64,000 nt of DNA from Actinacidiphila yeochonensis CN732 (GTDB lineage Bacteria > Actinomycetota > Actinomycetes > Streptomycetales > Streptomycetaceae). A model generated the notes under the pieces. That model saw only the letters and a list, made by a program, of their open reading frames with translations, did no database searches and had not been told where the DNA came from. The position numbers and the translations under genes are program-made. The stretch covers positions 1 through 64,000 of the forward strand of contig NZ_JQNR01000003.1 of NCBI RefSeq assembly GCF_000745345.1, written 5' to 3'. This document shows positions 47,119-55,561 of this stretch, one piece after another (position 1 is the first letter of the stretch; every line of letters starts with the position of its first letter).

Positions 47119-48717
47119 TCAGGCGAGGGAGACCAGGTCCGCGTACTCCTGGCCCCACAGGTCCTCGACGCCGTCGGGCAGCAGGATGATCCGCTCGGGC
47201 TGGAGCGCCTCCACCGCGCCCTCGTCGTGCGTGACCAGCACCACCGCGCCGGTGAAGGTGCGCAGGGCGCCCAGGATCTCCTCACGGCTGGCCGGGTCCA
47301 GGTTGTTGGTCGGCTCGTCCAGCAGCAGCACGTTGGCGCTGGAGACGACCAGGGCGGCCAGCGCCAGCCGGGTCTTCTCACCACCGGAAAGGACCCCGGC
47401 CGGCTTGTCGACGTCGTCGCCGGAGAAGAGGAAGGAGCCCAGGATCTTGCGGATCTCGGCCAGGTCGGTGTCGGGCGCCGACGAGCGCATGTTCTCCAGC
47501 ACCGTGCGGGCCGGGTCGAGCGTCTCGTGCTCCTGCGCGTAGTAGCCGAGCTTGAGGCCGTGGCCGGGCACGACCTCGCCGGTGTCCGACTTCTCCACCC
47601 CGGCCAGCAGCCGCAGCAGCGTGGTCTTGCCGGCGCCGTTGAGGCCGAGGATGACCACCCGGGTGCCGCGGTCGATGGCCAGGTCGACGTCGGTGAAGAT
47701 CTCCAGCGAGCCGTAGGACTTCGACAGCCCGCTGGCCATCAGCGGGGTGCGGCCGCACGGCGCGGGGTCGGGGAAGCGCAGCTTGGCGACCTTGTCGGAC
47801 AGCCGGACGTCGTCCAGTCCGGCCAGCAGCTTCTCGGCCCGGCGGGCCATGTTCTGCGCGGCGACGGTCTTGGTGGCCTTGGCGCGCATCTTGTCGGCCT
47901 GGGAATTCAGCGCGGCGGCTTTCTTCTCGGCATTCGCGCGCTCGCGCTTGCGGCGTTTCTCGTCGGCTTCGCGCTGCTGCTGGTAGAGCTTCCAACCCAT
48001 GTTGTAGACGTCGATCGCGGACCGGTTGGCGTCCAGGTAGAAGACCTTGTTGACGACCGTCTCGACGAGCTCCACGTCGTGGGAGATGACGATGAATCCG
48101 CCGCGATAGGTCTTCAGGTACTCGCGCAGCCAGGCGATGGAGTCGGCGTCGAGGTGGTTGGTGGGCTCGTCCAGCAGGAGCGTGTCGGCGTCGGAGAAGA
48201 GAATGCGGGCCAGCTCCACGCGGCGCCGCTGGCCGCCGGAGAGGGTGTGCAGCGGCTGGCCGAGGACGCGGTCGGGCAGGCCGAGGGCGGCGGCGATGGT
48301 GGCCGCCTCGGCCTCGGCGGCGTATCCGCCCTTGGTGAGGAACTCGGTCTCCAGCCGCGAGTACTTCTTCATCGCGTTCTCGAGGGTGGCGCCCTTCCCG
48401 TTGGCCATCCGCTCCTCGTTCTCGCGCATCTTGCGCAGCACGGTGTCCAGCCCGCGGGCGGACAGGACGCGGTCCCGGGCGAGGGTGTCGAGGTCACCGG
48501 TGCGCGGGTCCTGGGGCAGGTAGCCGACCTCGCCGCTGCGGGTGACGGTCCCGGCGGCGGGCTGTCCCTCGCCGGCCAGGACCTTGGTCAGGGTCGTCTT
48601 GCCGGCTCCGTTGCGGCCGACGAGGCCGATGCGGTCGCCCTTGGCGACGCGGAAGGAGGCGGACTCGATGAGGACGCGGGCGCCGGCGCGCAGCTCGACG
48701 CCGGTGGCGGTGATCAC
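47119..48717 (-). CDS. ABC-F family ribosome-associated ATPase
   Basis: 532 residues, two nucleotide-binding domains and no membrane part. First domain: GRNGAGKTTLTKVL, LSGGQRRRVELARIL, LLLDEPTNHLD. Second: GLNGAGKTTLLRLL, LSGGEKTRLALAALV, LLLDEPTNNLD. The P-site tRNA-interaction linker (about 240-310) is long, Lys/Glu-rich and helical (QQREADEKRRKRERANAEKKAAALNSQADKMRAKATKT). ABC-F proteins bind the ribosomal E site to rescue stalls or protect from antibiotics. AGGAG lies eight bases before the GTG. A leaderless seven-codon leader ORF precedes it by 113 bases. Confidence 0.93.
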   Translation of the reverse strand: MITATGVELRAGARVLIESASFRVAKGDRIGLVGRNGAGKTTLTKVLAGEGQPAAGTVTRSGEVGYLPQDPRTGDLDTLARDRVLSARGLDTVLRKMRENEERMANGKGATLENAMKKYSRLETEFLTKGGYAAEAEAATIAAALGLPDRVLGQPLHTLSGGQRRRVELARILFSDADTLLLDEPTNHLDADSIAWLREYLKTYRGGFIVISHDVELVETVVNKVFYLDANRSAIDVYNMGWKLYQQQREADEKRRKRERANAEKKAAALNSQADKMRAKATKTVAAQNMARRAEKLLAGLDDVRLSDKVAKLRFPDPAPCGRTPLMASGLSKSYGSLEIFTDVDLAIDRGTRVVILGLNGAGKTTLLRLLAGVEKSDTGEVVPGHGLKLGYYAQEHETLDPARTVLENMRSSAPDTDLAEIRKILGSFLFSGDDVDKPAGVLSGGEKTRLALAALVVSSANVLLLDEPTNNLDPASREEILGALRTFTGAVVLVTHDEGAVEALQPERIILLPDGVEDLWGQEYADLVSLA

Positions 48718-48830
48718 GGGGGTTACTCCTGGGCGGTTGCACGGTGGACGCGGCCGGGCGTGCGGAAGCGGCCGCGGGACGACAGGGCGGCGGTGGGCCG
48801 TCAGAGGGCGTCGGGTCGTGAGCCGCGCGG

Positions 48831-48854
48831 CTAATCGAGGAGCAGGACTGCCAT
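48831..48854 (-). CDS. Leaderless leader ORF MAVLLLD upstream of the ABC-F gene
   Basis: ATG GCA GTC CTG CTC CTC GAT TAG. The ATG lies exactly six bases after a good -10 (TAGACT, 48861-48866 on the minus strand), so it would be the first codon of the message. The stop codon abuts the perfect palindrome AGCCGCGCGGCT (48821-48832). The three consecutive leucine codons, short length and position 113 bases before the ABC-F start make it a candidate attenuation leader peptide. Confidence 0.65.
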   Translation of the reverse strand: MAVLLLD

Positions 48855-49049
48855 ACGGACAGTCTACGGGGACACGGCAACCGCTTTGCGGGCTCCACCG
48901 CCCCGCAGGTGACCCATATCACCCATACTCGGACATGTACCGCCGAACTCCGGCGGCTCCGCGCGGTGTCCGCCCGCCTCCCCCGAAAGGCACGGCGGGC
49001 ACCACGGGCACGACGGGCACCACGAGCCCCGCCGAGGAGGGAGACCGAC

Positions 49050-49511
49050 ATGACCCCGCCGAACGGCCGGCCGGCGACGAACCGGCCCGCGACCCGGCCC
49101 ACCGTGTACCCGGCTCTGCGGTACAGGGACGCCAGGGCCGCCATCGAGCTGCTGAAGGAGGCGTTCGGCTTCACCGAACTCGCCGTCCACGAGGACGCGG
49201 ACGGCGGCGTCGCCCACGCCGAGCTGGCCCACGGCAACGGAGTGGTGATGCTCGGCACCGCCGGGGAGCAGCCGCCGGAGGGCAGTTACGACGAGCTGGC
49301 CGGCGAGCCCGGACCGGTCTCGGTGTACGTGGTGGTGGACGACCCTGACGCCCACCACGACCGGGCGCTGGCCCACGGCGGCGTACACGTCGTCCGGCCG
49401 CTCACCGACCAGGAGTACGGCTCGCGCGACTACGTGGCCCGCGACCCGGAGGGCAACCTGTGGTGCTTCGGGACCTACTCGCCCGAGCTGCCCCCCGCCG
49501 GAGACGGGTAG
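49050..49511 (+). CDS. VOC (glyoxalase/bleomycin-resistance fold) family protein
   Basis: 153 residues. Two beta-alpha-beta-beta-beta modules: YPALRYRDARAAIELLKEAFGFTELAVHEDADGGVAHAELAHGNGVVMLG and PVSVYVVVDDPDAHHDRALAHGGVHVVRPLTDQEYGSRDYVARDPEGNLWCFGTY. Metal-binding His/Glu positions are plausible (AHAEL, DPEGNLW). Substrate unknown. GAGGAGGGAG precedes the ATG at 49050. Divergent from the ABC-F leader. Confidence 0.9.
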   Translation: MTPPNGRPATNRPATRPTVYPALRYRDARAAIELLKEAFGFTELAVHEDADGGVAHAELAHGNGVVMLGTAGEQPPEGSYDELAGEPGPVSVYVVVDDPDAHHDRALAHGGVHVVRPLTDQEYGSRDYVARDPEGNLWCFGTYSPELPPAGDG

Positions 49512-55323: not shown

Positions 55324-55525
55324 GACGGGCTATGCGGCACGTGGTGAACTGCCGGGAGCCATACGGCGGCAGGAGAGGAAGTCCGGTGCGAATCCGGCGC
55401 GGTCCCGCCACTGTCACCGGGGAGCGCCCTCCCGACACCCGTACGCCACGGCCGGTTCCACCGGCTGGAAGGCCCGGGGAGTGCGCCGATCCGGGAGCCA
55501 GGAGACTCTCACCGCCGGTCACGTC
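55324..55525 (+). ncRNA. Cobalamin (adenosylcobalamin) riboswitch
   Basis: Contains the conserved blocks in order: the GGCAGGAGAGGAAGTCCGGTG region, GCGGTCCCGCCACTGTCACC with the B12-core GCCACTGT (55407-55414), CCGGGGAGTGCG, and GGGAGCCAGGAGACTC (55495-55508, the CAGGAGACTC B12 box). The closing P1 strands GACGG (55324) and CCGGTCACGTC (about 55516-55525) flank it. It lies directly upstream of cobD and would shut the operon when cobalamin is plentiful, probably by hiding the ribosome-binding site of the short ORF that follows. Confidence 0.95.
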
Positions 55526-55561
55526 GATCCAGGGCGCGGACCCTGAGTGAGGACTCCTGCC

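Follow-up and report, generated by a model that had tools for sequence, protein, structure and literature searches.

In mycobacteria, cysteine-responsive attenuators built on leaderless short open reading frames (ORFs) have been reported (Canestrari et al. 2020, cited in PMC13236596; such ORFs appear in PMC4633059), and several resistance genes of the ABC-F family carry upstream ORFs (uORFs), namely those of CplR (MRI), VmlR (MIN), LsaA (MAGN), Are5sc (MLV), TiaA (MVGDDDISG), and LmrC (PMC10201436, PMC12421871, PMC8546547). The same reports describe translational attenuation for cplR, and two of them propose, for three-codon ABC-F uORFs, that drugs stall ribosomes early with little dependence on context and that no particular peptide is needed (PMC10201436, PMC12421871). 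Here, we describe a putatively leaderless seven-codon ORF (the mini-ORF) upstream of an ABC-F ribosome-protection-like gene of Actinacidiphila yeochonensis CN732, a member of the family Streptomycetaceae. Both lie in positions 1 to 64,000 of contig NZ_JQNR01000003.1 (assembly GCF_000745345.1), and this whole stretch of 64,000 nucleotides is called the window. Judging from sequence comparison, we give roughly even odds (about 0.5) that the ABC-F gene is under a translational attenuator in which the mini-ORF acts as the sensor and ribosomes held on it open the switch; the signal that holds them would probably be antibiotics.

Like the mycobacterial cysteine attenuators, the mini-ORF is short, looks leaderless, would open an actinobacterial mRNA at its 5' end, and apparently serves translation attenuation of the next gene. 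As far as the cited sources describe them, however, those attenuators carry Cys codons and precede sulfur genes, whereas the ORFs studied here share no amino acid, mostly have at most eight codons, and precede a ribosome-protection gene; in Streptomyces, moreover, the mini-ORF itself is predicted to be the strand that pairs with the ribosome-binding site (RBS). With the reported uORFs of resistance ABC-F genes it shares its very small size and its place before an ABC-F gene, but it looks leaderless, no Shine-Dalgarno (SD) sequence was seen, and the helix is formed by the ORF itself; the ABC-F clade also differs, as judged by reading, not from a tree. The wblC/whiB7 uORF, said in work by Lee and colleagues of 2022 to control transcription, is a further case of uORF control of an actinobacterial antibiotic-response gene, but the gene and the level of control are different. 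In ermC-type attenuation, pairing within the leader hides the RBS and a stalled ribosome opens it, as would happen here, but that leader has its own SD sequence, a peptide-specific arrest, and a multi-hairpin switch. The kind of device is already known from the leaderless cysteine attenuators of mycobacteria, and what is new is the variant before an ABC-F ribosome-protection gene. In the open-licence literature, we found no work combining ABC-F, Streptomyces, leader peptide, and leaderless, and none of four mini-ORF peptide strings; among the open-licence matches listed, no title or start of abstract described a leader ORF upstream of this ABC-F gene. The tool uORF4u, used for several ABC-F uORFs, includes an SD search for prokaryotes (PMC10219788) and would therefore disfavour leaderless ORFs; such uORFs are easily missed when searches score an SD sequence.

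The gene and its leader comprise the following features:

47119..48717, minus strand: ABC-F ribosome-protection-like ATPase, 532 amino acids, GTG start (matches to NF000355, ABC_tran, and ABC_tran_Xtn)
48726..48730, minus strand: SD sequence AGGAG of the ABC-F gene, eight bases before the GTG; in relatives it is predicted to pair with CTCC of the mini-ORF
48718..48830, minus strand: C-rich, G-poor untranslated stretch from the mini-ORF stop to the ABC-F start, possibly a Rho-loading stretch
48821..48832, minus strand: 12-base perfect palindrome AGCCGCGCGGCT, including the last two bases of the mini-ORF stop
48831..48854, minus strand: mini-ORF MAVLLLD, seven codons and TAG, putatively leaderless, kept in relatives
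Between ATG and TAGACT, minus strand: six-base spacer GTCCGT
48861..48866, minus strand: -10 element TAGACT; the seventh base after it, with which the mini-ORF ATG begins, is an A and the predicted +1

All elements listed in the earlier note on this DNA, from TAGACT and the six bases before ATG to the stop touching the palindrome and the gap of 113 bases between stop and GTG, were read in the sequence. The codons run from ATG (48854-48852) through GCA GTC CTG CTC CTC GAT, with three consecutive Leu codons, to TAG (48833-48831), and the untranslated stretch is 54% C and 27% G (99 bases counted). The -10 box and its spacing suggest that the mini-ORF is transcribed without a leader.

For comparison of the mini-ORF, 590 relatives of the ABC-F protein were ranked and the loci of the closest 80 taken; with the window these make 81 loci, which are not an even sample. 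A TANNNT box followed by a short ATG ORF was present in 81/81 loci, at a spacing of six bases in 37 and seven in 44, and the start and stop codons were kept throughout, which bears out the proposal that a conserved, putatively leaderless leader ORF precedes the ABC-F gene. Seven codons and TAG were found in 75 loci, and the ATG lay 79-90 bases from the ABC-F start in 59. The six exceptions in length keep an early stop, as seen by eye: L056 has an in-frame insertion, the stops of L041 and L078 come a few codons later, and those of L015, L016, and L073 fall at the SD sequence. In the window's genus, 30 loci were examined out of 35 genomes, and 28 have the mini-ORF (MAVFLLD in 8, MAVLLLD in 6, and others). 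Two natural variants were observed in this genus: in L230 the -10 element stands directly before the ABC-F GTG, without a mini-ORF, and the ABC-F gene itself appears leaderless, and in L217 a 23-codon leader ORF extends past the ABC-F start. Beyond the genus, the family set comprised 99 genomes, of which 87 were examined (the rest being ten in other sets, one cut, and one without a match); a putatively leaderless mini-ORF no longer than 20 codons was present in 73, and in 62 of these it has at most eight. Across the family, 158 of 180 distinct loci with a mini-ORF have seven codons. Comparison across relatives, of the kind that the earlier note had proposed for Streptomyces, showed conservation of the ATG, the early stop, and mostly the seven codons but not of the palindrome, which was seen in the window only, among 28 genus loci and the 180 family loci. 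A role for the palindrome was set aside for this reason, and it is probably not functional. By eye, GGCGTACGACCTC stands just after the mini-ORF stop in many loci of the window's genus, and TCACGACCT-like stretches occur in other families.

In the class set, the gene was found in 141 of 148 genomes. The analysis covered 130 loci, including the window and one paralogue, with 129 upstream regions tested; four further paralogues fell outside it, as did partial genes and several repeats from f24 and f25. The test looked for TANNNT, 5-8 bases, ATG or GTG, and an ORF of at most eight codons, with 50 dinucleotide shuffles as control. Such a mini-ORF was present in 52/129 regions, compared with 2/129 on the reverse strand and a shuffle mean of 2.0 (maximum 8), and outside the family in 40/117 compared with 1.9 in shuffles. 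In addition, 11/129 regions, all without a mini-ORF, have the ABC-F start itself at leaderless spacing (2.0 expected). In the 81 loci the peptide is mostly MAxLLx followed by H or D, the commonest being MAILLAH (27); outside the family, the peptides are unrelated (MMPVAD, MRAPD, MTSAAS, VSYYQRE, VPSVRTP, and others). As a side observation, an ABC-F paralogue with 63% identity (L210, G101:C4) has its own leaderless seven-codon ORF, MSTPRVS, with 8.6 leader-RBS pairs; shuffling the untranslated region (UTR) gave 2.0 (p 0.045), and shuffling the leader gave 5.4 (p 0.08).

Besides conservation, the case for attenuation includes a predicted helix between the mini-ORF and the RBS. In folds from the leader to the ABC-F start, the mean pairing probability of the SD sequence over the 81 loci was 0.95, and 0.83 of this was with the mini-ORF. 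Expected leader-RBS pairs numbered 12.07, compared with 5.12 after shuffling the leader and 2.63 after shuffling the UTR, and p was at most 0.05 in 63/81 and 67/81 loci, respectively. For 60 of the 80 close relatives, aligned as A1 (seven-codon ORF, UTR of up to 100 bases), RNAalifold returned the mini-ORF/RBS helix as the sole structure. In the full helix, AUGG pairs with CCGU(G), bases 6-7 with the spacer, and CUCC with GGAG; 93.5% of cells were paired, compared with at most 43.9% when the partner was slid. Cells changed on both sides numbered 23 versus 7.5 in shuffles, and 0/500 shuffles reached 23. At pair 6-109, which involves the third position of the Ala codon (base 6), the 60 loci have C-G in 35, A-U in 16, U-A in 1, and other combinations in 8, and the same pair reads CG in 55, AT in 47, and other in 25 of 127 GTG- or TTG-start loci with ATGGC leaders. 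Leaders also form a better duplex with their own RBS (mean -11.5 kcal/mol) than when re-paired (-10.4 kcal/mol): none of 5000 permutations over 54 distinct sets reached the own mean, and the own duplex exceeded the swapped mean in 36/54 sets, relatedness still being in this comparison.

The pairing was also found when each genus was represented once, by its first suitable locus, with family UTRs of at most 50 bases skipped. Against UTR shuffles, the Fisher combination gave 2.3e-7 for 17 family rows (paralogue and window included) and 5e-5 for 26 other genera; against leader shuffles, it gave 0.0012 and 0.007. Other families gave consensus helices as well. In f17, the GCUCCCG region pairs with CGGGAGU despite a long insertion in one of five members; leader and RBS pair in f26 (three members); and f19 has CCGUGG with CCACGG beside the SD sequence, though its single-sequence folds mostly lack the helix. 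A covariance model built from the 60 aligned loci was searched in 41 family genomes and matched in 23, with 20/25 matches directly before the ABC-F gene. The five other matches had E-values from 1.5e-4 to 0.05 (the best elsewhere being 1.5e-4). Second matches in G188 and G201 were rejected as further leaders, with no leaderless mini-ORF, no ATG start, and a coding-like appearance by eye; weak matches also occurred in G184, G185, and G206. When a ribosome was modelled on any of eight codons, mean SD accessibility rose from 0.04 to 0.17-0.23 in 78 family loci; it also rose in f17, f28, and f9, with little or no rise in f18.

Codon use in the mini-ORFs differs from that in the ABC-F genes. Leaders end in CAT in 60/64 cases of His and GAT in 10/10 of Asp (81 loci), and the Ala at position 2, present in all 75 seven-codon close loci, is encoded by GCC in 40, GCA in 27, and GCT in 8, with codon 3 variable. 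These codons are rare in the ABC-F genes, where 2% of Ala residues are encoded by GCA or GCT, 2.6% of His by CAT, and 2.9% of Asp by GAT. Selection therefore acts on the bases of the mini-ORF, not on the peptide alone. The CTC CTC Leu codons in Streptomyces are best explained as the strand predicted to pair with the SD sequence; among the 57 family leaders in which codons 4-5 do not both encode Leu, 35 still contain CTCC. TAG is the stop in 174/180 family loci, and other families often use TGA. CATTAG or GATTAG at codon 7 and stop is kept family-wide despite strong codon bias, and the AU-rich stop region of the mini-ORF may matter.

From these comparisons, we infer the transcript start, translation of the mini-ORF, the direction of control, and drugs as the signal. 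The transcript would begin at the A of the ATG, and a ribosome would load on the 5' end without an SD sequence. The mini-ORF codons would have a second use in Streptomyces and several other lineages, as the 5' strand of a helix against the ABC-F SD sequence and start codon. Once a ribosome had read the few codons and departed, the helix would cover the site at which ABC-F translation starts. If a ribosome were instead held at any point of the mini-ORF, for example by a drug acting at the peptidyl-transferase centre, it would cover the anti-RBS strand and leave the RBS free. Since a single ribosome covers the full length of 4-8 codons, holding at any codon would have the same effect, in keeping with drugs that stall ribosomes early and show little preference for sequence. 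The mini-ORF therefore looks like a sensor of held ribosomes rather than of one amino acid. We put forward tentatively, with the balance tipping against it, that this is an actinobacterial device found class-wide, whose leaderless ORF of 4-8 codons serves ribosomes as a landing site and also provides the anti-RBS strand for the ABC-F gene. In that reading, one ribosome anywhere opens the RBS, so that no arrest peptide is needed and any ribosome held near initiation is reported; families would then keep the start, the stop, and the complementarity but be free to vary the peptide.

Several results weigh against occlusion by the helix or against its generality. In the 60-locus alignment, the RNAalifold covariation term was just -0.22 kcal/mol with 2/8 pairs changed on both sides, and neither double-change pairs nor further pair types exceeded shuffles (348 and 119 of 500). 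Tree contrasts of paired changes gave three that agree, none that oppose, and two without difference (p 0.25), and another tree test gave three for, none against, and one unchanged (p 0.25). In the 26 other genera, the Wilcoxon test against leader shuffles gave 0.068, with p at most 0.05 in three only. Consensus folding found no leader-RBS helix in f18, f9, f14, or f28, of which f28 pairs leader and RBS in single folds of three of four members, and single-sequence folds of f18, f19, and f14 mostly lack it. The predicted gain in SD access from a modelled ribosome is modest even in Streptomyces, and access drops in f19 and f26. Under the class test, 77/129 regions showed no mini-ORF, and in genus g84 neither an ATG nor a GTG mini-ORF was found in 13/13 genomes. 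A TAGACT or TAGAAT box is nevertheless visible in the printed g84 sequences (e.g., L300-L307), and five g84 loci flagged as leaderless ABC-F genes were chance matches inside the SD region and were not counted.

The window and its own genus contribute to these adverse results. The window has 3.7 leader-RBS pairs, compared with 2.6 after leader shuffling (p 0.29) and 2.4 after UTR shuffling (p 0.25), and in its own fold the SD-leader pairing is 0.00. Neither in the window nor in its genus (28 loci) did the modelled ribosome make the SD sequence more accessible, the window genome's own copy is not detected by the covariance model, and the consensus of 21 genus loci with short UTRs holds just three leader-RBS pairs. 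In the consensus of seven genus loci with long UTRs, the AUGG and CUCC region pairs with the ABC-F start region. Streptomyces is best supported for occlusion, which is carried to the window by homology of the ORF; in the window's genus the ORF is kept, the helix is weak, and occlusion is the least certain step. The attenuation switch considered possible in the earlier note is supported in part: comparison shows the anatomy of an attenuator in Streptomyces and some other lineages, and the helix is weak in the genus for which the switch was proposed.

The main rival, above all in the window, is transcriptional attenuation, likely Rho-dependent, which we regard as unlikely. Here, the early end of the mini-ORF would leave a C-rich, G-poor stretch for Rho loading, and a ribosome held on the ORF or blocking that stretch would let RNA polymerase continue. 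The base composition is consistent with this: between stop and RBS, C is 0.49 and G 0.26, with C above G in 173/173 family loci and in 37/42 outside the family, and the median C/G is 1.91 compared with 1.19 upstream of the promoter (79 loci). However, C-rich leaders may be general in these genomes, for which the C/G counts lack a control. The window, with its long stretch (113 bases) and weak helix, suits Rho, but a leader ATG just 79-90 bases from the ABC-F start, as in 59 of the 81 loci, is short for it, and the mini-ORF/RBS helix and its paired changes are left unexplained. An intrinsic-terminator scan of 48600-49100 found none, which is neutral for Rho. Attenuation of transcription through uORFs has been reported for the Streptomyces ABC-F genes lmrC and are5sc (PMC8546547, PMC12421871).

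Ribosome loading or coupling is likewise unlikely, and slightly more so. The leaderless ORF would catch 70S ribosomes and pass them to the ABC-F start by termination-re-initiation, with no drug sensed. Leaderless small ORFs coupled to the next gene have been reported in mycobacteria (PMC4633059), and the ATG lies just 41 bases from the ABC-F start in three close loci and seven further family genomes (g94; species may overlap), where the ORF stops at the SD sequence or, in three, extends past the ABC-F start. The ORF of L217 passing the ABC-F start and the -10 element of L230 directly before the GTG also agree with coupling. In most loci, however, the stop is 55 bases or more from the ABC-F start, which is far for re-initiation, and coupling leaves the anti-RBS complementarity unexplained.

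A drug-specific arrest at the conserved Ala2 is improbable. Phenicols and oxazolidinones stall ribosomes at a penultimate Ala and less so at Ser or Thr. Ala2 is present in 167/180 distinct family loci, where it is encoded by GCC, GCA, or GCT and followed by an unconstrained residue 3, and an inner Ala, Ser, or Thr occurs in 37/42 mini-ORFs outside the family, a count without control. In contrast, Ala2 itself is found in 1/42 of those mini-ORFs, and since G4 of the Ala codon is also paired, the RNA may explain part of the conservation. The ABC-F protein resembles phenicol/oxazolidinone protectors, with PoxtA as best solved-structure match (E 9.6e-80) and YbiT close behind (1.4e-78), and OcrA (Rv1473) and MAB_2736c have been reported to be active against linezolid (PMC12633451).

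Attenuation by leucyl-tRNA supply through the consecutive Leu codons, one of two signals suggested in the earlier note, is very improbable. Besides the three Leu codons in the window, L4 is found in 125 and L5 in 117 of the 158 seven-codon family leaders, but Leu occurs in 7/42 mini-ORFs outside the family and is missing from 35/42, with no conserved run of Leu codons, and sensing of leucine was rejected on this count. Moreover, 35/57 leaders that lack Leu-Leu at codons 4-5 have CTCC, the ABC-F gene is not a leucine gene, and CTC is an ordinary codon (47% of Leu). A random ATG behind a promoter, for which the shortness of the mini-ORF and nothing beyond it speaks, is refuted by the conservation in 52/129 regions versus 2.0 in shuffles and in 81/81 relatives, and its chances are negligible.

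The window ABC-F protein has two ABC_tran stretches and an ABC_tran_Xtn, which place it in the ABC-F family, and matches NF000355 ribo_prot_ABC_F (NCBIfam) at 393.4 bits (cut-off 380). An ABC-F match was present in 126/127 good genomes of the class. The gene is followed on its 3' side by genes for a small helix-turn-helix protein and an enoyl-CoA hydratase, and a divergent glyoxalase-type gene lies on the other side. The enoyl-CoA hydratase and small helix-turn-helix protein fit the neighbourhood of Rv1473, with Rv1472 and Rv1473A. The window gene is tentatively equated with OcrA/Rv1473 by family, copy number, and this neighbourhood. An RNA-family search of the window matched only a cobalamin riboswitch elsewhere (55327-55528, plus strand, 73.8 bits), and the candidate of a known RNA family at the mini-ORF leader was rejected.

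Upstream of the -10 element, a generic sigma-70 scan of 48600-49100 found no promoter, and no TTGACA-like box stands 16-18 bp from the -10 element in the window sequence. Positional counts over the 81 loci point to one further element:

48875..48889, minus strand: upstream element GCAAAG-CGG-TTGCCG, ending eight bases before the -10 element

Its family form is GAAAA-N3/4-TTGCNC, which by eye is mostly absent from Kitasatospora loci. WblC-activated promoters of S. coelicolor have start sites mostly 7-8 bp past the -10 element (PMC7157823). A WblC-type promoter was rejected: GAAAA-N3-TTGCNC fits the box and -35 element reported there, but lies eight bases from the -10 element and not 16-19. The window's genome contains the pattern TAGAMT, 5-8 bases, ATGGC twice, and one of these matches is the mini-ORF leader. 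Another pattern search gave no match, the fourth codon of the window's mini-ORF being CTG.

If the mini-ORF does act as the sensor in translational attenuation, held ribosomes could be sensed by a device that needs neither an arrest peptide nor an RBS, and the locus would offer a testable case of leaderless initiation used in regulation. Given the protection against linezolid reported for mycobacterial relatives (PMC12633451), control of this ABC-F gene would bear on intrinsic drug tolerance in actinobacteria.

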